This document shows, in pieces, positions 4,212-34,734 of a stretch of 50,864 nt of DNA (its first letter is position 1; every line of letters starts with the position of its first letter). The DNA is from a virus: the IMG/VR virus record IMGVR_UViG_3300001593_000006, positions 1-50,864 of that record; one strand, 5' to 3'. The position numbers were made by a program, and so were the translations under genes. The notes under the pieces were generated by a model. It saw only the letters and a program-made list of their open reading frames with translations. It had not been told where the DNA came from and searched no databases.

Positions 4212-4452
4212 CTGGAGCTGCATCCGAAATGCCGAAAGCCACGACGACTACAGCTCAGGGGGGGACGAACCATATGGGGGCGCGTACCAGTTCAGCGTCT
4301 CGACCTGGCAGTCTCTCGGCTTCGCTGGCGTCCCTAACGAGGCGGCTCCGGTGACCCAGGACCAAGCCGCTCTGGCTCTGTACGCCTACGACCTGAGGGC
4401 GTTCGGCAATCCATGGGAGGCGTGGCAGACAGCCCCGCTGTGTGGGCTATGA
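3904..4452 (+). CDS. Secreted Rpf/transglycosylase-like protein
   Basis: The last 80 residues (DWSCIRNAESHDDYSSGG to APLCGL) have the resuscitation-promoting-factor/transglycosylase-like fold: W-C-I-x-x-x-E with the catalytic Glu, GGAYQFSVSTWQSLG, and a closing Cys. A Thr/Pro-rich linker of about 50 residues precedes it. The first standard start is GTG 3904. However, the frame is open from 3862 and reads RRWGALTLAALAVTPSA just upstream, an excellent signal peptide, if CTG 3865 (with GGGAG 6 bases before) is the true start. The domain cleaves peptidoglycan glycan strands. A role in entry, exit or wall remodelling is inferred. The stop overlaps the RusA start. Confidence 0.8.
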   Translation: MTPSATLTSVNAVAKRTIVLVEFVGPATPRLGPIELPPPLSHHPLMVGSTTTRTRTTTKPPTPPTPTTTSTTTSLVTTRSVQSASTASVGEQASDATSTNTPDWSCIRNAESHDDYSSGGDEPYGGAYQFSVSTWQSLGFAGVPNEAAPVTQDQAALALYAYDLRAFGNPWEAWQTAPLCGL

Positions 4453-17648: not shown

Positions 17649-19203
17649 CAAGGCGCTCGACAGGATGTGGGCCCTTCGTCTTGAGGACGGACGGTGCTGG
17701 GGCGAGGCTGCTGCCCCGTTCCAAGTCGAGGACGCCGAGGCGATCTTCTCGGACCAACGACCGAACTGGCACTTCCTCACGAGACCCCGTGGTGGCTCCA
17801 AGTCGACGGACATGGCGGCGATCGCCCTGTCCTGGTTGACCACCGACGCCCCCCCAATGTCCAACGGGCACGTCGTCGCTGCCTCGACCGATCAGGCCGC
17901 GATCGTCATCGACGCGGCTGCTGGGTTCGTAGCGCGCACCCCTGAGCTTGACGGCGCCGTCATCGTCGAGTCACAGAAGCTCCGCGCTCCCAACGGCGCG
18001 TGGGTAGAGGTCTTGGCCCAGTCCGACTCAGGGGCCTGGGGCCTCCGTGACGCCCACTTGTTAGTCGCTGACGAGTTCTGCCAGTGGCCCGAGACGCGGG
18101 GCGCTAAGCGAGTCTGGACGGCCCTCTACACAGCCGCTCCGAAGGTGCAGGGCTGCAAGCTGGTCATCCTGACCTCCGCGGGTGAGCCGTCGCACTGGTC
18201 CCACGAGATCTACGAGAAGTGCAAGGGCGACCCCCTCTGGCGCGTCTCCGAGGCTCCCGGCCCCGTCCCTTGGCTGGCCCCCGAGGAACTCGCCTCGCTC
18301 AAGTGGCAGCTCCGTCCCTCCGAGTACGAACGTCTAGTTCTCAACCTGTGGTCGGAGGACGAAGACAGGGCAGTCTCCGAAGAGGACTGGGACTTCGCCG
18401 CGCAGGAGTACAAGAGCCTCCTGCCTCGGCACGGCACGAACTACATAATGACCGTCGACCTCGGCATCCTGAACGACGCCACGGTTATGGTTGTGGCCCA
18501 CAAAGAACCCATTGACCCTCTTCACAGGCTCGGGCCGCAAAGGGTCGTGATCGACCACCTCGAGCGCTGGAAGGGCTCCAAGAAGGCCCCGATCCGAGTC
18601 TCTGCTGTAGAGGATTGGCTCGTGGAGCACTCGCCCGATTGGTTCCGCTGCCCTGTCTACGCCGACCCCTCTCAGTTCCGAGGCTCCATCCAGAACCTCA
18701 ACCTCCGCGGGGTGCGCGCCAAGGAGTGGAACTTCACCGCCACCTCTGTCGGCGAGGTCGCGACTGCTTTGGTCCAGACGTTCCGCAACCGCCAGATCTA
18801 CGTCCCGAACGACCCGCAACTGAAGGACGAGCTCCTGAAAGTCAGGCTGCGGGAAAGCTCCCCCGGTGTCACCCGCTTGGACCACGACCGCGGCGCGCAC
18901 GACGACCAAGCTGTAGCTATAGGGATGGCCTGCCGCATCCTCTTAGGTGACGGGACTGGGCTCGGACATAGCTGGCTGGACTACATGAAGACCAAACAGG
19001 CCGCCCAGGAGGCCAACCCGCAACCGCCCGCCCAGCGCCCATTGCCCTCTTTGATCGGCCAGGGGGCCTCGGTTATCCCAGCTCGCGCTTGCAAGCACCG
19101 TTACTGGCCTGATGGCCGCTGCGTCAACTGTGGGACCACTCACGAAGAGGTCATTGCCATGGAACACGAGAGGACCCTCAAACTGGCAGCGGCGGGACGG
19201 TAG
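17641..19203 (+). CDS. terL: Large terminase subunit
   Basis: The packaging motor and nuclease. Walker A is RPRGGSKST (about residues 48-56), Walker B LLVADEF (140-146), and the coupling motif is LVILTSAG. The RNase H-like nuclease carries acidic residues in IMTVDLGILND (Asp273), VYADPSQF and HDRGAHDDQAVAIGMA. The length of 520 aa is normal. A C-terminal tail has HRYWPDGRCVNCGTTHE, a small zinc-like extra. GTG 17641 overlaps the TerS gene by eight bases. Confidence 0.95.
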   Translation: MSSKALDRMWALRLEDGRCWGEAAAPFQVEDAEAIFSDQRPNWHFLTRPRGGSKSTDMAAIALSWLTTDAPPMSNGHVVAASTDQAAIVIDAAAGFVARTPELDGAVIVESQKLRAPNGAWVEVLAQSDSGAWGLRDAHLLVADEFCQWPETRGAKRVWTALYTAAPKVQGCKLVILTSAGEPSHWSHEIYEKCKGDPLWRVSEAPGPVPWLAPEELASLKWQLRPSEYERLVLNLWSEDEDRAVSEEDWDFAAQEYKSLLPRHGTNYIMTVDLGILNDATVMVVAHKEPIDPLHRLGPQRVVIDHLERWKGSKKAPIRVSAVEDWLVEHSPDWFRCPVYADPSQFRGSIQNLNLRGVRAKEWNFTATSVGEVATALVQTFRNRQIYVPNDPQLKDELLKVRLRESSPGVTRLDHDRGAHDDQAVAIGMACRILLGDGTGLGHSWLDYMKTKQAAQEANPQPPAQRPLPSLIGQGASVIPARACKHRYWPDGRCVNCGTTHEEVIAMEHERTLKLAAAGR

Positions 19204-21446
19204 TGGCGCTCAGTTTGCGCCGTCGGCGCGCGCTCAAGCCCGAGCCCATGGCCGACGACCTCGTTGTCCGTAAGGCCACTGAGGCGGTCGCTAAGGCCTT
19301 CCTGACCGGTAACGCGGCCAAGATGCCAGGGACCTCGTGGAGCAATCAAGGCACGATCAACAACGCCCTGTTGGCTCGGGTCACGCAGAACCTCGCATCC
19401 TCTTTCGGCCGCGCGCCCGAAGAGCTAGAGGCATCTCTAGCCGAGCACGGCCTGTCCTGGGGTCCCCCCTTCCCTCCTGGCAGGCCGCTCGACCCCTTCT
19501 GGGGCTACCGCCGTCCTCCGCGGACTTGGGACTACTCCGTCGGGGAGAACGTCCAGCTCACCCCGCGCTGGAACCGCATCTCCTTCGGCACGCTCAAGGC
19601 GATCATCGACTCGTACTATGCGGCGCAGATCGCGGTACGCCACCTCATCAACGACGTTCGCTCGCTGGACTACCAGTTCATCCCGCCGCAGAACGTCCTT
19701 GAGGACGCCACCGAGGACATCGCCAAGGCCGAGGAGTTCATGGCCTCCCCGGACAAGCGCCAGCCCTTCAGGACTTGGCTCGCGGAATGGCTACAGGATG
19801 TCCTCCGTTACGACGCCGGCTCGCTCTATATCCGCCGCAACGAGGCTGGGGACCCGATAGCCCTTGAAGTGATCTCGGGCGCGACCCTGATCCCCTTGGT
19901 GGACTTCTTCGGTCGGCCCCCCGCCGACGAGGACGACACCAACGCGACTCCCGAGGGTATCTGGGAAGGCGATACGGTCCCCGCCTTCGTGCAGATCATC
20001 GAAGGCCTGCCTTGGGTCTGGCTCACCGCCGACGACATCATCTACCAGCGGTTGAACCCTCTCCCCGAGAGCCAGTACGGCCTCGCCCCGATGGAAGCCG
20101 TGCTGATCCAGGCCAACACGGACATCCGCTTCCAGTGGCACTTCCTCCAGTACTTCACCGAAGGCACGATCCCCGCGGGCTTCATGGAGGCCCCGCCCGA
20201 CCTGTCCGACCCGATCCAGGTACAGGAGTGGCAGGAGACTTGGGACGCGGTGATGCTGGGCGACCAGTCCAAGCTCAACCAGATCCGCTGGGTCCCCGGT
20301 GGGGCGAAGTTCACCGAGATCAAGCCGACCGTCTTTGACAAGGAGTTCCCGCTCTACCTCATGCGCTGCACTGCGGCGGCCTTCGGAGTCACCGCCAACG
20401 ACTTGGGCTTCACCGAAGATGTCAACCGCGCCACTGGTGAGGTGCAGGTCGACGTGCAGTTCCGAGTCGGCACGCTCCCCGTGGTCCGCTTCGTCGAGGA
20501 CGTCATCAACCAGTTCCTCTTGGAGAACCTCAAGCTCCGGGCGCGCATCCAGTTCGACACTGGGCAAGGCACGCAGCACCGCCTCGAGGTGGCCCAGGCG
20601 AACGACCTCTACATCAAGAACGGGACCCTCTCCAACGACGAGGTGCGTATGACCCTCGGCAAGCGGATCAGCCGTGAAATCCCCTCCCCGCGCTTCGTAG
20701 ACAACACCCGCGGCGGCCCCATCCCCCTCTTGGCGATCCACTCCCTCGCTGGCAAGGTCGACCCCACAACTTATGGTCCTGCCCAAGAGCAGCAGTTCAT
20801 CGACCACCCATTCCTGTCTGCGCCTGGCACTTTGCCGGTCGTCGGCAGTCAGGACTACAAGGACGCGCAGAACTCGACGGCGCAGATGCAGACGAACATG
20901 GCGATCGAGAACGCCGACCCGCGCTCTGCCCAGCAGTTCCGCCCAGCGATGCAACCCCCGCCGATCACCAAGCCCGCGACAGGCGACGGCCCGACCCAGC
21001 CGAAGAACGCCCAGAAGGACGCCCTCGGCGAGGCCTACGAACTGATCGACGCCCTCTTGGACCGCATGGGCGTCTCCAAGGACGGGACCTCGATCGACAA
21101 CACCGGGGGACCGGGTGTCACGCGTGGGTTCTCCAACCCCACGACGGTCACTGGTGGCCTCATGGTGGACACCGGCATCCAAGGGGTCGACCTCCAAGGG
21201 CCGAAGCTCAAGAAGGACCCCGAGGACGACGACGAGGAAGTCGAGAAGTCCCTCGTGCTGCGCAAGTGGCGCGAGAACTCCCTGAACCGCGTCAAGAAGG
21301 GCCTCCCGCCCCGGCCCTTCCCTGACATGCCTTTTGAGTGGGCCAACCCCGTTTGGGAGCGCCTACAGAGCGCTAAGACGCGAGAGGAAGTGATCGCGGC
21401 CTTCTCGCACAGTGCGGGAAAAGTAGCGGCCCCGACGGGGGCCTGA
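19203..21446 (+). CDS. Portal protein
   Basis: Forms the dodecameric ring at the head vertex. It follows TerL by a one-base overlap (TAGTG). The region YYAAQIAVRHLINDVRSLDYQFIPP and later TANDLGFTEDVNRATGEVQ resemble SPP1/HK97-type portals. At 747 aa it is long: residues after about 480 are Gln/Pro/Asn-rich and acidic (KKDPEDDDEEVEKS), and a final domain ends SHSAGKVAAPTGA. The stop TGA is overlapped by a CTG in the next frame. Confidence 0.9.
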   Translation: MALSLRRRRALKPEPMADDLVVRKATEAVAKAFLTGNAAKMPGTSWSNQGTINNALLARVTQNLASSFGRAPEELEASLAEHGLSWGPPFPPGRPLDPFWGYRRPPRTWDYSVGENVQLTPRWNRISFGTLKAIIDSYYAAQIAVRHLINDVRSLDYQFIPPQNVLEDATEDIAKAEEFMASPDKRQPFRTWLAEWLQDVLRYDAGSLYIRRNEAGDPIALEVISGATLIPLVDFFGRPPADEDDTNATPEGIWEGDTVPAFVQIIEGLPWVWLTADDIIYQRLNPLPESQYGLAPMEAVLIQANTDIRFQWHFLQYFTEGTIPAGFMEAPPDLSDPIQVQEWQETWDAVMLGDQSKLNQIRWVPGGAKFTEIKPTVFDKEFPLYLMRCTAAAFGVTANDLGFTEDVNRATGEVQVDVQFRVGTLPVVRFVEDVINQFLLENLKLRARIQFDTGQGTQHRLEVAQANDLYIKNGTLSNDEVRMTLGKRISREIPSPRFVDNTRGGPIPLLAIHSLAGKVDPTTYGPAQEQQFIDHPFLSAPGTLPVVGSQDYKDAQNSTAQMQTNMAIENADPRSAQQFRPAMQPPPITKPATGDGPTQPKNAQKDALGEAYELIDALLDRMGVSKDGTSIDNTGGPGVTRGFSNPTTVTGGLMVDTGIQGVDLQGPKLKKDPEDDDEEVEKSLVLRKWRENSLNRVKKGLPPRPFPDMPFEWANPVWERLQSAKTREEVIAAFSHSAGKVAAPTGA

Positions 21447-21469
21447 ACCGAGAGGCCGCAGGCATCCTC

Positions 21470-23230
21470 GTGCAAGCCGAGGACACTGGCCGTGTACTGT
21501 TGGTCCAGCGGTTGCCCGACAAGCACGACGAGGACGAAGCGTATGCCAGGTGGGAGTTCCCAGGAGGCCGGCTTGACGACTCCGACGCTTCCGTCTGGGC
21601 TGGCGCTGTCCGAGAGTTTGAGGAAGAAACTGGATGCCCTCTCCCTGCCAGCGTGGAGCCTTCCGGTGGATGGACCAGTGACGATGGAGTCTACGAGGGC
21701 TTTGTTCTTCAAGTGGCCCGAGAGTCAATGCTTGTACCGCACCCTCAACCCGACGAAATCTCCCGCGTCCAGTGGTGGGACCCCGCCGACCTAGACGACC
21801 CCCGCATCCGCGAGAAGGTTACTGAGCAGCTGGGCGACATCAAGCCCCTCCTGAAGTCGTTCCACCGCCACACCGACGCGATCCTGGCCCACTACACCCC
21901 CCTGATCCAAGACTCGATGGCCCAGATCATCGAAGGCGACACCGTCCGTCATGCGATCCGCGCCGCGTACACCTCGGTCCACAAGGCCACAGCGGGCACG
22001 CACAGCAAGCGATCGGGGATGGTGTCTCTTGATGTGCCCGCTGGCCTTATCCCCGTCATGGCGGGGGGAGTGCCAGATCAGCACATAACGGTCGTGTTCC
22101 TCGGGAGCGACGTGGGGGACGCCACGTTCGCCGCCGTGTGCGCCCTAGCGGAGACGGTCGCTGCGTCGGTCTCTGGTCCGGTGAGCGGCACTATCGGTGG
22201 TCTCGGGACCTTCCCTCCCTCGGAGAGCAGTGATTGGCTGGTGCCTGTCTGGGCTAAGCCTGAGATCGTTGGTATCGCCCAGTTGCGGGCCCCGTTTGAG
22301 CCGTGGAACGCCAGCCAGCACAAGGACTTCCACCCGCACATGACATTGGCGTACCTTGACCCTGACGAACCGCTCCCCGCTCCCGTGCCGCCTACTCCCG
22401 TGACGTTCACTCATCTTTCGGTTCACAGGGGCGACGAGGTAGTTCGGTTCCCGTTCGGCGGCGCTGTTAAGGCGATGACCCCGACCGCGCCGGGCTCGCA
22501 GAACACCCCGAAGTACCAGCGCCAGTTGCAAGCCCTGATCAGTTCTCCCCAAACCGTCATAGGCGCAGCAGGGGTAGGTGCCGGCGCTGCCCTGGCGGGA
22601 CCGGCCTTAGCAACCGCTGGCGGGGTGGGTAGCGCCGTCCTCGCCCTCTTGAACGCACAGTTAAAGCTAGGGGCGCTCACGGCCGTTCTGACGGCTCTGT
22701 ACGGCGATGCACTCCTTCAAGGCGCTTACGAGGCCTCACAGGCCTCTGGGAAGCCCCTACCGCCATTGGGGCTTCCCGAGGGCTACTGGGACCAGTGGGT
22801 GCCGGGGCACAACGACCTCGCCGCCCAGCTCCCCGGTGGCACGCTCCAAGAACTGCTCGCGGCCCAAGGCGTCACGATCCGAGGGATCTCTGAGACGCAG
22901 TTGAACCGTATCGCCGACGCCATTGCCGAGGCAGTGCGCGATGGAGTCCCAATGAAAACCACGGTCGTAAAGATCGAAGCCATCATTGGAGACGCCGCTC
23001 GAGCCCAACTGATTGCGTCCACCGAGTACGCGAGGGCTGTGACGGCGGCTAGGCGGGCGTTCTACCGTGCCAACCACATAGGCATGGTGGCCTGGATCGC
23101 CCACCCGGACGCGTGTGAACTGTGCAAAGAAAACGAGGCCGTGTCGCCTAGGGCACTTAGGGACTCGTGGCCGAACGGAGAGCCACCGGTCCACCCTGCT
23201 TGCCGGTGTGTTCTGGCGCCTGCTCCGTAG
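21470..23230 (+). CDS. MuF head protein fused to NUDIX and 2H-phosphoesterase domains
   Basis: Three parts in order. Residues of about 1-125: a NUDIX hydrolase with VLLVQRL, WEFPGGRL and REFEEETG (Nudix box about 32-55). Residues of about 185-335: a 2H phosphoesterase (LigT-like) with HITV (205-208) and HMTL (290-293), the paired H-x-T-x residues. Residues of about 490-586: a MuF/SPP1 gp7 minor head domain, STEYARAV, DACELCKENE, HPACRCVLAP. MuF proteins sit inside heads near the portal and may be ejected. GTG 21470 is the first standard start, but the frame opens earlier and reads LNREAAGILVQAEDTGRV from CTG 21443, overlapping the portal stop as CTGA, which would restore the first NUDIX strand. 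Confidence 0.88.
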   Translation: MQAEDTGRVLLVQRLPDKHDEDEAYARWEFPGGRLDDSDASVWAGAVREFEEETGCPLPASVEPSGGWTSDDGVYEGFVLQVARESMLVPHPQPDEISRVQWWDPADLDDPRIREKVTEQLGDIKPLLKSFHRHTDAILAHYTPLIQDSMAQIIEGDTVRHAIRAAYTSVHKATAGTHSKRSGMVSLDVPAGLIPVMAGGVPDQHITVVFLGSDVGDATFAAVCALAETVAASVSGPVSGTIGGLGTFPPSESSDWLVPVWAKPEIVGIAQLRAPFEPWNASQHKDFHPHMTLAYLDPDEPLPAPVPPTPVTFTHLSVHRGDEVVRFPFGGAVKAMTPTAPGSQNTPKYQRQLQALISSPQTVIGAAGVGAGAALAGPALATAGGVGSAVLALLNAQLKLGALTAVLTALYGDALLQGAYEASQASGKPLPPLGLPEGYWDQWVPGHNDLAAQLPGGTLQELLAAQGVTIRGISETQLNRIADAIAEAVRDGVPMKTTVVKIEAIIGDAARAQLIASTEYARAVTAARRAFYRANHIGMVAWIAHPDACELCKENEAVSPRALRDSWPNGEPPVHPACRCVLAPAP

Positions 23231-24192: not shown

Positions 24193-24846
24193 ATGCCCGA
24201 CATCGCCCTAGTGGTCATCACCGACGGTCGGCGGGAGTTCCTCCGTGAGACGATCGCCAGCCTCCGAGAAAACGCGGGGCCCTTTGAGGAAGGGTTCATC
24301 GTGGACGACTCGGGTGATGAGGAGTACGGCGAGTGGCTTGACAACGAGTACTTCCCTCGATTCAGGGTCCTGCATCACACGGAGCGCCGAGGTTGCAGTG
24401 CGGCGGTTCGCACTGGCTGGGAGCACGCCTCAGAGCATGAGTACATCTGGCACGCCGAGGACGACTTCATTTACAGACGGGTCGTTCCCTTGGGCCGCAT
24501 GGTGGCGATTCTGGATGACCATCCCTACCTCGCCCAGCTAGCCCTCAAGCGCGGTCCCCACGGCCCCGTCGAACTCGCCGTAGGCGACCTCATGGCGGTC
24601 GAACTGGACCGCTGGGAGGACCACGAGGGCTTCTGCGACACCGACCTGATCTTCACCTTCAACCCCTGCCTGATCCCCAGAGATGTCATAGCGGTAGCCC
24701 TGGCCGATCCGTCGCCCCGGACTGAGCCCAACGTCACGACCTCCCTCTTGGCGAAGGGCTACCGCTTTGGCTACCTCGGCCAAACGACCGATCCTCCGCG
24801 CGTCCACCACATCGGGGAGCGGCGTATGGAAGGCTGGCTGCCGTGA
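24193..24846 (+). CDS. Family-2-like glycosyltransferase
   Basis: ATG 24193 after cacggaggcccc. GT-A pattern: ALVVITDGRREFLRETIASL, then FIVDDSGD (nucleotide-binding strand), RGCSAAVRTGW and WHAEDDF (the D-x-D-like metal site), near the usual spacing. 217 aa is a minimal catalytic domain without membrane helices, so it is soluble. Donor and acceptor cannot be read from sequence. Confidence 0.85.
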   Translation: MPDIALVVITDGRREFLRETIASLRENAGPFEEGFIVDDSGDEEYGEWLDNEYFPRFRVLHHTERRGCSAAVRTGWEHASEHEYIWHAEDDFIYRRVVPLGRMVAILDDHPYLAQLALKRGPHGPVELAVGDLMAVELDRWEDHEGFCDTDLIFTFNPCLIPRDVIAVALADPSPRTEPNVTTSLLAKGYRFGYLGQTTDPPRVHHIGERRMEGWLP

Positions 24847-25007
24847 TCAACCTTATGGCCCCCTTCTTCAGCAAGAGCCGCGGCGAGTGGGGGCAGATTG
24901 ACTGGACCTCTAGCGGCATTGCCGGGATGAACCTTTTGCTCGATCTCAACGCTGGGGTTGATCCTGGCGTGGCTATCAAGCGTTTTGAGGAACGGCGACC
25001 AGCGTGA
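24843..25007 (+). CDS. Short hypothetical protein in the sugar cassette (54 aa)
   Basis: GTG 24843 and TGA 25005-25007 overlap both neighbours. Product: MINLMAPFFSKSRGEWGQID and VDPGVAIKRFEERRPA. No motif. It might be a small partner of a neighbouring transferase. Confidence 0.5.
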   Translation: MINLMAPFFSKSRGEWGQIDWTSSGIAGMNLLLDLNAGVDPGVAIKRFEERRPA

Positions 25008-25708
25008 TCGCCGGCATCTGCCACGTCAAGAACGAGATCGACATCGTAGAGCTCGTGATCCGCCACACCCTCGCGGAAGGGGTGGACCACCTGTGGGTGC
25101 AGGATCACATGAGCACCGATGGGACCTGGGACCTGCTTCAGGAATACGCGAAGGAATATCCCATCACCCTTTTGCGCGATGAGATTCCAGTGTTCTACCA
25201 ACCGGAGAGGATGAACGCACTCGCTCGGATGGCCTATGTGAGTGGCGCAGAGTGGGTGCTGCCCTTTGATGCTGACGAGTTCTTCTACGCCCCCAGCGGG
25301 CGCACAGTGGCCGCAGAACTGGCTCTGGAGGACCTCTCGACGTTGAAGTTGTTCTGCCGGTCGTGGAGGTACCTCGACTTCAGTCGACGGGACGTGACTC
25401 CTCAGCGCTCCAAGGTTGTGTTCCGGGCAGCACCCGGGGCGCGACTCGTCGCTGGTAACCATGACGTGACCCTCCCCGATGGGACTGAGCATGTCTTGGA
25501 GGTCGCCCACTACCAGTACCGCTCCCTAGAGCAGTTCATCCGCAAGGTCCGCGGGCTTGAGGCCTACCAGTCCTTGTTCCCCACCCAGGGCCGCCCTCCC
25601 TGGCTCGACCTCACCGACGAGGAACTAGCCGTCGAGTGGGACAAACTGTGCGCCGTTGAAACCGTCGTAGACCCCATACCCCTCCGAGTCCCCGAGGATG
25701 CCCGTTGA
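25004..25708 (+). CDS. Glycosyltransferase (family-2/GT92-like)
   Basis: GTG 25004 (GTGA). IAGICHVKNEIDIVELVIRHTLAEGVDHLWVQDHMSTDGT, then LPFDADEFF (DxD) and later HYQYRSLEQFIRKVRG, is the pattern of the family of small transferases acting on protein or lipid sugars. 234 aa, soluble. Part of a coupled set of sugar genes. Confidence 0.82.
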   Translation: MIAGICHVKNEIDIVELVIRHTLAEGVDHLWVQDHMSTDGTWDLLQEYAKEYPITLLRDEIPVFYQPERMNALARMAYVSGAEWVLPFDADEFFYAPSGRTVAAELALEDLSTLKLFCRSWRYLDFSRRDVTPQRSKVVFRAAPGARLVAGNHDVTLPDGTEHVLEVAHYQYRSLEQFIRKVRGLEAYQSLFPTQGRPPWLDLTDEELAVEWDKLCAVETVVDPIPLRVPEDAR

Positions 25709-26376
25709 ACGCAGTCGTCTACACCGCCATCACGGCGAACTACGACTCCCTGAAGCCTCACCCCGAGGTCCCTGGCGTCGACTTCGTGGCCTTCATGGAC
25801 GAGCCTGTAAGCGGCACCAACTGGGACGTGCGACAGATCGGGGAGTTCCCCGACGAGCACCCGCGCCTCACGGCGAAGGCGTACAAGCTGCTCCCCCACA
25901 TCTACCTCCCCGAGTACGAGTACAACGTCTGGCTGGACGCGGACTTCCAGATCACCTCCCCCACGTTCCCTGAGGAGGCCCTAGCTTGCGTTCAGGGGGC
26001 CGGTATCGCGATGTGGCCCCATACCCGCCACGACGACATCCGGGGCGAGCATGACGAGTCCGCGTGGCAGGCGAAGTACGTGGGCACGCAGATCTCCGAG
26101 CAGGTCGCCCACTACATTGCCGAGGGCATCCCTAAGCCCTCTGGGGTTTGGTGTACCGGCGTCCAGGCCCGCAAGACCCACGACCCCCAAGTTGTGAGGC
26201 TGCTCGAGATATGGATGTCGGAGAACCACCGCTGGAGCTATCAGGACCAGATCAGCTTCCCCTACGCGGTGTGGAAGACCGGAGTGGTCCCCGACCCTCT
26301 GCCTCCGCAGTGGACGGCGACCGACTGCCCGTGGTTTGACCTCCTGCCTCACAACCCGCACGCCCTAGTGCCGTGA
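25705..26376 (+). CDS. DUF616/TOD1-like glycosyltransferase
   Basis: TTG 25705 overlaps the previous TGA (TTGA). VYTAITANYDSLKPHP and KLLPHIYLPEYEYNVWLDADFQI are characteristic of DUF616 (TOD1/MUCI70-like) proteins, with the DxD metal motif in LDADF. SYQDQISFPYAVW near the end is also typical. Substrate unknown. Confidence 0.82.
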   Translation: MNAVVYTAITANYDSLKPHPEVPGVDFVAFMDEPVSGTNWDVRQIGEFPDEHPRLTAKAYKLLPHIYLPEYEYNVWLDADFQITSPTFPEEALACVQGAGIAMWPHTRHDDIRGEHDESAWQAKYVGTQISEQVAHYIAEGIPKPSGVWCTGVQARKTHDPQVVRLLEIWMSENHRWSYQDQISFPYAVWKTGVVPDPLPPQWTATDCPWFDLLPHNPHALVP

Positions 26377-27185
26377 TCGTCTTAGTCACAGGCGGCGGAG
26401 GGTTCATAGGGGCCTATGTGGAGGCAGCGCTCAAAGCCGAGGGCCATGAGCCAATCATCTTTGACCGGCCCAGCGATGTGCGCGAGACGCTTGACTTGGC
26501 TGCTGTGGGACCGGTTGACGCGGTGATCCACCTTGCAGGGAGGCTCGGGACCGCGGAACTGTTCGGCGGCTTCGACGAGGCTGTAGACGTGAACGTGAAG
26601 GGCACCCAGCGCGTCCTTGAGTACTGCCGCCAGGTGGGGGCCTCCTACGTCGGGATCACGATGCCAGAAGTTTGGGCGAACGTGTATCAGGCGACCAAGC
26701 GCTGCGCTCGTATTCTTGCAACGGCTTGGCACGAGTCCTACGGAGTGCCCGTAAGTCATGTCTGTGCCTTCAACGCCTTCGGGATCGGACAGAAGTACGG
26801 CCCCGGACATCCTCAGAAGATCATCCCCACCTTCGCCTCAAGAGCTTGGGCTGGGGAGCCGATAACGATCTGGGGGGATGGCACGCAAACGGTGGACCTC
26901 ATCTCGGCGACCGAGGTCGCCAAGGTCCTGGTGGCCGCTCTCGACTACGGAGGGGATCAGGTCTTCGACGCCGGCACTGGTGGAGAGTGGACCGTCAACG
27001 AGGTCGCCAAGTACGTCTTGGAAGTGACCGGCTCACCCTCCGAGATCGTCCACTACCCGATGCGTGAGGGGGAGCGCCCCCACACTCGTCTCAAGGCCTC
27101 GGGGGGAGGCTGGGACCTGCTCGGCTGGCACCCTGTCTTTGACCTCACCGAACTGGATGACACGATCCTGAGCTACCGGAGATAA
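26373..27185 (+). CDS. NAD-dependent sugar-nucleotide epimerase/dehydratase
   Basis: GTG 26373 (GTGA). Rossmann motif VTGGGGFIGAYV at the N-terminus, VIHLAGRLG, the catalytic tyrosine and lysine in VYQATKR, and GDGTQTVDLI as in extended SDRs. 270 aa is slightly short. It probably makes or modifies a nucleotide sugar used by the neighbouring transferases. The SSS/T position of the triad is not obvious (GITMPEVW), which may alter activity. Confidence 0.87.
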   Translation: MIVLVTGGGGFIGAYVEAALKAEGHEPIIFDRPSDVRETLDLAAVGPVDAVIHLAGRLGTAELFGGFDEAVDVNVKGTQRVLEYCRQVGASYVGITMPEVWANVYQATKRCARILATAWHESYGVPVSHVCAFNAFGIGQKYGPGHPQKIIPTFASRAWAGEPITIWGDGTQTVDLISATEVAKVLVAALDYGGDQVFDAGTGGEWTVNEVAKYVLEVTGSPSEIVHYPMREGERPHTRLKASGGGWDLLGWHPVFDLTELDDTILSYRR

Positions 27186-33927: not shown

Positions 33928-34734
33928 ATGAAGACATGTGCCGAGTGCCACACTCCCAAACCGCTTGATGATTTCAAGCGTCACGCAGCCTCACCCGACG
34001 GCCACACCTACATCTGCAAGGACTGTTTGCGTGGCCGTCGGGAGTCGCTGTCCCACCTCACCCCAGAAGAACGCCGACAGCGGCGCAGCGAGACCTTCAA
34101 GAAGCGTTATGCGTCCGACCCGGAGTTTCGGGACAGGCTTAGGGGCCATCGGCGTAAGTCCAACTATGGTGTGCCGCCCGAGGTCTACCAGGCCCTCCTA
34201 GACCGGCAGGGCGGGGACTGTGCCATTTGCCACCAGCCAACTGAGAACGGATTCGGCCAGCGTGGTTTTCATCTTGACCACGACCATGAGACCGGGCAGA
34301 TCCGAGGTCTTCTGTGTCTCGGTTGCAACACGGGGCTAGGAGGGTTCGCCGACGATCCCGTCCGACTCCGCTCAGCCATCCGCTATCTGGCAGCCGTCCG
34401 TGAGCCGTTGGTGGTTAAACGAGCGTCTCCTAAAGTCCGTGCCCAATGCGGCACTGTTAGCGGCTACATGCGTCATCGTCGGCTGAACGAAGAGAAGTGT
34501 GACGCGTGCCGAGAAGCCTGGTCTAAGTACAACTCCAGCAAGGCATGGGAACGTCGCAAAGCCCCTGAGGACCTAAAGCGCCGTAAGGTAGCCGTGTGCG
34601 GGACGAGCAGCGGCTATACGGCCCATTTCAACCGAGGCGAGCCGGTGTGTGACGCTTGCCGCGCAGCCCGTGCCGTCTATCAGAAAGATCGCAAGGCAAA
34701 GAAGCAGCCTCTCCCCAGCCCCTCCGTTCCCTAG
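33928..34734 (+). CDS. HNH endonuclease VII-like protein with C-terminal zinc repeats
   Basis: Residues 1-40: CAECHTPKPLDDFKRH and YICKDCLRGRR, a zinc domain usual for such proteins. Residues of about 90-140: YQALLDRQGGDCAICHQPT, HLDHDHETGQIRGLLCLGCNTGLGGFADDP, the endonuclease VII/HNH core with the catalytic H-D-H. Residues of about 170-260 hold two copies of a CGT-SGY...C-DAC-A module. It lies between capsid and head-completion genes, and such free-standing HNH genes are often mobile. Confidence 0.9.
   Translation: MKTCAECHTPKPLDDFKRHAASPDGHTYICKDCLRGRRESLSHLTPEERRQRRSETFKKRYASDPEFRDRLRGHRRKSNYGVPPEVYQALLDRQGGDCAICHQPTENGFGQRGFHLDHDHETGQIRGLLCLGCNTGLGGFADDPVRLRSAIRYLAAVREPLVVKRASPKVRAQCGTVSGYMRHRRLNEEKCDACREAWSKYNSSKAWERRKAPEDLKRRKVAVCGTSSGYTAHFNRGEPVCDACRAARAVYQKDRKAKKQPLPSPSVP

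Follow-up and report, generated by a model that had tools for sequence, protein, structure and literature searches.

A probable −1 ribosomal frameshift links a phage portal protein to a NUDIX, 2H phosphoesterase and MuF extension

The viral sequence IMGVR_UViG_3300001593_000006 (IMG/VR; 50,864 nucleotides, the whole stretch analysed and hereafter the window) contains a portal gene followed, in an overlapping frame, by a segment encoding a NUDIX domain, a 2H phosphoesterase domain and a MuF head-protein domain. Sequence analysis indicates that this segment is very probably the 3′ part of the portal gene itself, which ribosomes would enter through a programmed −1 frameshift. Some would terminate at 21444, giving the portal protein alone; others would slip at 21416-21422, aided by a hairpin 5 nucleotides (nt) downstream, and continue to 23230, giving a portal-NUDIX-2H-MuF protein. 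Comparison with relatives suggests that, throughout a family of soil phages, this signal probably leads to portal rings built from two protein versions. A preliminary description of the window had presented the segment as a single open reading frame (ORF) next to the portal gene; the two do adjoin, but their −1 frame relation had been overlooked, and the segment is most likely an extension of the portal protein rather than a self-standing gene. The elements involved are as follows.

19203..21446, plus strand: portal gene, 0-frame, encoding the short isoform of 747 amino acids and 82.9 kDa (PF04860 at 2e-18; phrog_2662, portal, at 1.8e-31)
21416..21422, plus strand: slippery heptamer G_GGA_AAA (portal codons GCG GGA AAA GTA), conserved in the relatives L011 and L013
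21423..21427, plus strand: spacer of 5 nt between heptamer and hairpin, read from the sequence
21428..21443, plus strand: putative stimulatory hairpin GGCCCC-gacg-GGGGCC, a perfect 6-base-pair stem ending directly before the portal stop
21444..21446, plus strand: TGA stop of the unshifted short portal isoform, 7 codons past the heptamer
21422..23230, plus strand: −1 frame extension of 602 codons and a stop, with no ATG, GTG or TTG before GTG 21470
21449..21850, plus strand: NUDIX domain (Nudix box at 21563-21634; PF00293 at 2.5e-16; VIA-align Z 16.3 to RenU, 6uuf)
21998..22471, plus strand: 2H phosphoesterase cassette (HxT motifs at 22082 and 22337; PF13563 at 8.5e-8; mean predicted local distance difference test score, pLDDT, of the model 91.9)
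22907..23227, plus strand: MuF (SPP1 gp7-like) domain with C-terminal HPACRC (PF04233 at 1.4e-6; TIGR01641 at 2.1e-5; phrog_19480 at 7e-11)

The portal assignment is firm (PF04860, 67.1 bits against a cut-off of 39.1), and the NUDIX-2H-MuF frame is exactly −1 relative to it. Ahead of the 0-frame stop lies an in-frame heptamer of the X_XXY_YYZ type with a hairpin a few nt downstream, the support for the hairpin being weaker in 60-nt folds. G_GGA_AAA at 21416-21422 is the only XXXAAAA heptamer in plus-strand open frames of at least 60 codons in the window, and the hairpin is retained in the two nearest relatives, L011 (the same as L002) and L013, although its sequence differs. Slippage at this site would join 740 portal residues to the 602 of the extension, for a predicted long isoform of 1342 amino acids and 146 kDa.

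The start of the downstream frame points in the same direction. Upstream, the frame stays open as far as 21377, and GTG 21470 is the first ATG, GTG or TTG in it. The gene start formerly placed at 21443 was rejected, as the codon there is a CTG within CTGA that overlaps the portal stop and is no recognised start. GTG 21470 was rejected as well: in the structural model it is residue 15 of the stretch read from 21428, whose residues 10-17 form the first NUDIX strand, so that initiation there would delete most of the strand, and the codon is GTC in both L011 and L013. Between the portal stop and this first possible start, the three pairs among the window, L011 and L013 differ by 5, 6 and 2 synonymous and 0 nonsynonymous changes in the −1 frame. 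The stretch thus behaves as translated, and the ribosome would most simply arrive there from upstream.

To follow the signal across relatives, IMG/VR was scanned with an alignment of five portals, which returned 80 loci. Where MuF lies in an overlapping −1 frame (11 loci), the overlap always contains an in-frame heptamer (GGGAAAA, CCCAAAA or AAAAAAA), and 21 of 23 in-frame portal-MuF fusions carry a slippery heptamer at the junction, against 0 in 24,798 portal-core codon positions. More contigs came from a second scan, made with another portal alignment, those already seen being set aside for the heptamer counts. Here the heptamer occurs in 36 of 38 in-frame loci, in 3 of the 4 −1 loci, and in 0 of 34,625 portal-core positions, a count that includes some first-survey contigs. 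In the −1 exception, L157, the frame seems to break within NUDIX, and the CCCAAAA of this locus lies in the MuF frame. After deduplication of both scans, a junction heptamer is present in 69 of 73 loci (14/14 with MuF in the −1 frame and 55/59 in-frame fusions), compared with a mean of 1.7 loci and a maximum of 6 in 200 synonymous-codon shuffles. Likewise, Pro-Lys and Gly-Lys pairs are encoded as a heptamer in 69 of 197 cases in the junction and in 0 of 91 in the portal core.

Two further properties accompany the heptamer. As in dnaX-type signals, a slip in the single-ORF members soon reaches a stop: in 54 in-frame fusions the −1 stop lies at a median of 6 and a maximum of 22 codons, whereas for nearby positions the median is 47 (p 6.5e-24, ignoring kinship). 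The 32 nt past the heptamer also fold more strongly than local sequence in both layout classes (Kolmogorov-Smirnov p 1e-6 and 2e-27, kinship again ignored). Outside the family the picture changes. The heptamer was found in none of five distant portal groups, so portals at large do not share the signal; in four of them (L079, L080, L084 and L093) MuF is a separate ORF with an ATG start close to the portal stop, and in L073 the start is GTG. The identical loci L074 and L091, with TTTTTTC in the overlap, were not counted, being too distant. A megablast of 23 kb against phage genomes gave no match, and a search of a genome collection returned distant portals only.

The two layouts are interleaved on the portal tree, which comes from a short search without bootstrap: parsimony requires at least 8 changes between −1 and in-frame arrangements, so the association with the heptamer has been renewed several times. 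Among isolated phages, Sonali and Mufasa8 of Arthrobacter (GenBank genomes) have a single ORF for portal-NUDIX-MuF. In both, CCCAAAA (4354-4360 in Sonali) precedes a CCCTCC/GGAGGG hairpin, at whose foot lies the −1 stop. In such in-frame relatives the signal would act in reverse, the unshifted product being long and the slipped one truncated. Both polarities yield a short and a long portal, so the conserved trait would be the making of two isoforms; this suggests that selection keeps both products rather than a gene layout.

The usual picture of a portal is a ring of twelve identical subunits. Here, both predicted isoforms contain the ring-forming portal domain, so a mixed ring is likely, in which only some subunits would bring MuF and the enzymes into the capsid. 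Sequence analysis shows the signal, its frame and conservation, both polarities and the domains; from these we infer slippage in vivo, the mixed ring and the packaging of the enzymes, and selection for a mixed ring is the simplest reading of both layouts. The segment seems to belong physically to the portal, which makes its association with the virion plausible, and more so than the preliminary description supposed. MuF proteins are thought to face the capsid lumen, and the enzymes may do so as well. It is further conceivable, as a speculation, that slippage has an efficiency near one half, which would make switches of polarity neutral and easy.

Other explanations of how the segment is expressed fare poorly against the comparative data. 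It could be a gene of its own, its translation starting by coupled re-initiation either at CTG 21443, which overlaps the portal stop, or at GTG 21470. The CTG AAC beside the stop is conserved in L011, L012 and L013, and a GAGAGG stretch lies 14 nt upstream of the GTG; against this, CTG is rare as a start, and the GTG has the defects already described. Moreover, L018, L023, L043, L048 and L054 have homologous protein sequence ahead of any start codon, with the stop elsewhere and the heptamer always present, and re-initiation leaves the heptamers and early −1 stops of in-frame fusions unexplained. We consider it very unlikely. Even less probable is a real heptamer whose slippage is transcriptional, or whose sequence is kept for another function of the DNA or RNA. 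Longer A runs in L023 and L019 would be able to slip in transcription, but GGGAAAA and CCCAAAA hold only four A's, where bacterial cases usually involve runs of eight or more (PMC3711429), and conservation is bound to the reading phase, the downstream hairpin and the near −1 stop.

The −1 layout could finally be a sequencing or assembly indel at the short A run of a true in-frame fusion. Homopolymer frame breaks are common artefacts, and L157 resembles one, though at another site. However, L011, L012 and L013 are three separate, diverged contigs that have heptamer, hairpin and stop in common, the triplet ahead of the A run being identical and in phase in every one of them, and no indel predicts in-frame relatives with the same heptamer and a close −1 stop. 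This is the least credible of the three.

Several observations nevertheless weigh against programmed frameshifting as the explanation. The evidence throughout consists of sequence and models. Most loci are metagenomic contigs of one clade and are therefore not independent, and the shuffle test ignores their kinship. In the folding test the comparison is drawn from sequence of the same genes, with no structure probe, and 60-nt folds are unexceptional at several sites, including the window site when set against shuffles. Four in-frame members (L014, L042, L141 and L143) lack the heptamer, a few relatives keep portal and MuF in different ORFs, and L027 (3400-3482) has NUDIX-MuF at +1 relative to the portal, with no nearby start codon or recognised slip signal. 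Beyond expression, the mixed ring, like the delivery of the enzymes, is a step that we infer.

The domains themselves are real and share a single frame downstream of the portal gene. Each motif reported from the letters holds up: the Nudix box (GGRLDDSDASVWAGAVREFEEETG, nt 21563-21634), the paired H-x-T motifs (HIT at 22082 and HMT at 22337, separated by 85 residues) and the C-terminal MuF domain, which terminates in HPACRC. NUDIX scores 60.4 bits against a Pfam cut-off of 21.1 and 2_5_RNA_ligase2 scores 32.8 against 27. Phage_Mu_F reaches 29.5 bits, 0.1 under its cut-off of 29.6, and exceeds it in the relatives L054, L019, L041 and L020; PHROG head-morphogenesis families also back the MuF domain, to 1e-11. 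Relative to the canonical box GX5EX7REUXEEXGU, the window has REFEEETG with the metal-binding Glu, one extra residue and an Asp at the first acidic position; the catalytic residues of the enzymes appear to be retained, and the His and Thr of the 2H motifs are unchanged across 9 relatives.

Structure prediction, proposed earlier as a check, gave folds of the expected kinds. For the AlphaFold model of 21428-23227 (mean pLDDT 84.6), VIA-align places the NUDIX part with RenU and Dcp2-type Nudix folds (Z as high as 16.3) and pairs the 2H part with drCPDase (Z 14.8). The 2H domain modelled separately (pLDDT 91.9) matches drCPDase (Z 14.4), with ThpR-like and LigT proteins within Z 13-14.4, and reaches Z 9.2 with Acb1 (7t26). 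As to the earlier link to Acb1, the 2H model is closer to LigT, ThpR and cyclic phosphodiesterases, and Acb1 was rejected as the nearest relative because these score higher. A search of solved structures with the 2H sequence gave no relevant match.

NUDIX and 2H behave as cargo modules that can replace one another. Of 68 tallied loci, just two, the window and L056, have the full NUDIX-2H-MuF set, with the two enzymes in opposite order. The window 2H cassette is 70% identical to that of L056, their portals 39%, and L011 and L013, the closest relatives, lack it at a site that is otherwise conserved; the cassette therefore moves as a module. In most members an enzyme lies ahead of the slip site (NUDIX in 42 of the 68 loci, 2H in 6, both in L056) and would therefore be present on both isoforms, while in the window both enzymes follow it and are predicted on the long form only.

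Other insertions were seen in these and related head proteins. L019 (5821-9831) encodes a portal-MuF fusion that continues into an ADP-ribosyltransferase exoenzyme domain (PF03496, 1.7e-19); GGGAAAAAA stands at its junction. The NUDIX domain of L067 (9150-9560), and likewise of L069 and L072, is apparently split by an insert of about 320 nt that contains a small ORF, leaving the halves in different frames. Portal domains of L063, L064, L067 and L071 are interrupted by about 400 amino acids, probably inteins, with a LAGLIDADG match in L064. In a cyanophage, Pseudanabaena phage Pam4 (L009, 2894-5935), the annotated capsid maturation protease is a MuF-like/NUDIX protein, apparently an independent NUDIX insertion in a head protein. 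Elsewhere in the window, between MuF and later structural genes, 24193-27185 holds glycosyltransferase-like ORFs (identified by eye), and 26373-27185 a nucleotide-sugar epimerase/dehydratase-like ORF. The ORF at 33928-34731 combines an endonuclease VII-like part (phrog_2633, 7e-35) with a WhiB-like C-terminal part (phrog_12112, 2e-15), the latter pointing to an actinobacterial host.

What the predicted enzymes do is a more tentative matter. The clearing of ADP-ribose-type or cyclic nucleotide signals is possible, and the retained catalytic residues, the ADP-ribosyltransferase in the same fused protein of L019 and a published survey that favours soluble ADP-ribose derivatives as targets (PMC9503650) are consistent with an anti-defence role for packaged NUDIX and 2H enzymes. 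In the models, however, 2H appears nearest to RNA 2′,3′-cyclic phosphodiesterases and LigT, and NUDIX to broad Nudix and Dcp2-type folds, and portal-fused enzymes may remain in the particle unless cut free. With RNA end repair or inert parts as the alternatives, we regard anti-defence activity as somewhat doubtful. We are evenly divided over a broader model, in which a two-isoform portal ring is fixed across the clade, the frameshift ratio is near one half as in dnaX, polarity flips are harmless, and cargo of the NUDIX, 2H or toxin type rides on the long form or on both.

If portal frameshifting is correct, the two-isoform signal would explain what determines the copy number of MuF and would provide a way to put enzymes on some subunits only. 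It would change the annotation of many genes now called plain fusions, those of cultured phages included, and the repeated change of polarity would constitute a natural experiment on what selection keeps.

Set beside known systems, the new result is how the segment would be made, by a frameshift in the portal gene; the domain fusions themselves have been described. Virion fusions of NUDIX, 2H and ADP-ribosyltransferase domains to MuF or portal are on record with an anti-signalling proposal (PMC9503650; PMC5512222), the same pairings and role as considered here. The novelty claimed for the fusion does not extend to these pairings, and the full three-part set is rare; in the text of those papers NUDIX, 2H and MuF do not occur together, and the fusions are not reported as frameshift-joined. 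Portal-MuF fusions are known in Sonali, Mufasa8 and Microbacterium clusters EA/EB (PMC7302621); in Sonali and Mufasa8 the portal is joined to MuF and also NUDIX, homologous to the window protein, and annotated as a plain single ORF with no frameshift reported. In the open-access literature searched, subscription papers lying outside its coverage, no report of portal frameshifting was found. Phage frameshifting is established for tail chaperones and capsid proteins (PMC5009743), and lambda-type tail chaperones, the capsid proteins of T7/T3 and A2, and Listeria PSA likewise gain a C-terminally extended virion or assembly protein, as proposed here; none of the cited genes is a portal, and the word "portal" is absent from that review. 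The closest parallel is E. coli dnaX (tau/gamma), which also uses a heptamer and a downstream hairpin to make two isoforms of one protein, with A_AAA_AAG in place of the GGGAAAA or CCCAAAA of the phage portal gene. In E. coli the slip shortens the product of a full-length ORF, while in reverse-polarity dnaX genes it gives the longer one, and an efficiency of about 50% is cited (PMC3711429); the portal family has both polarities.

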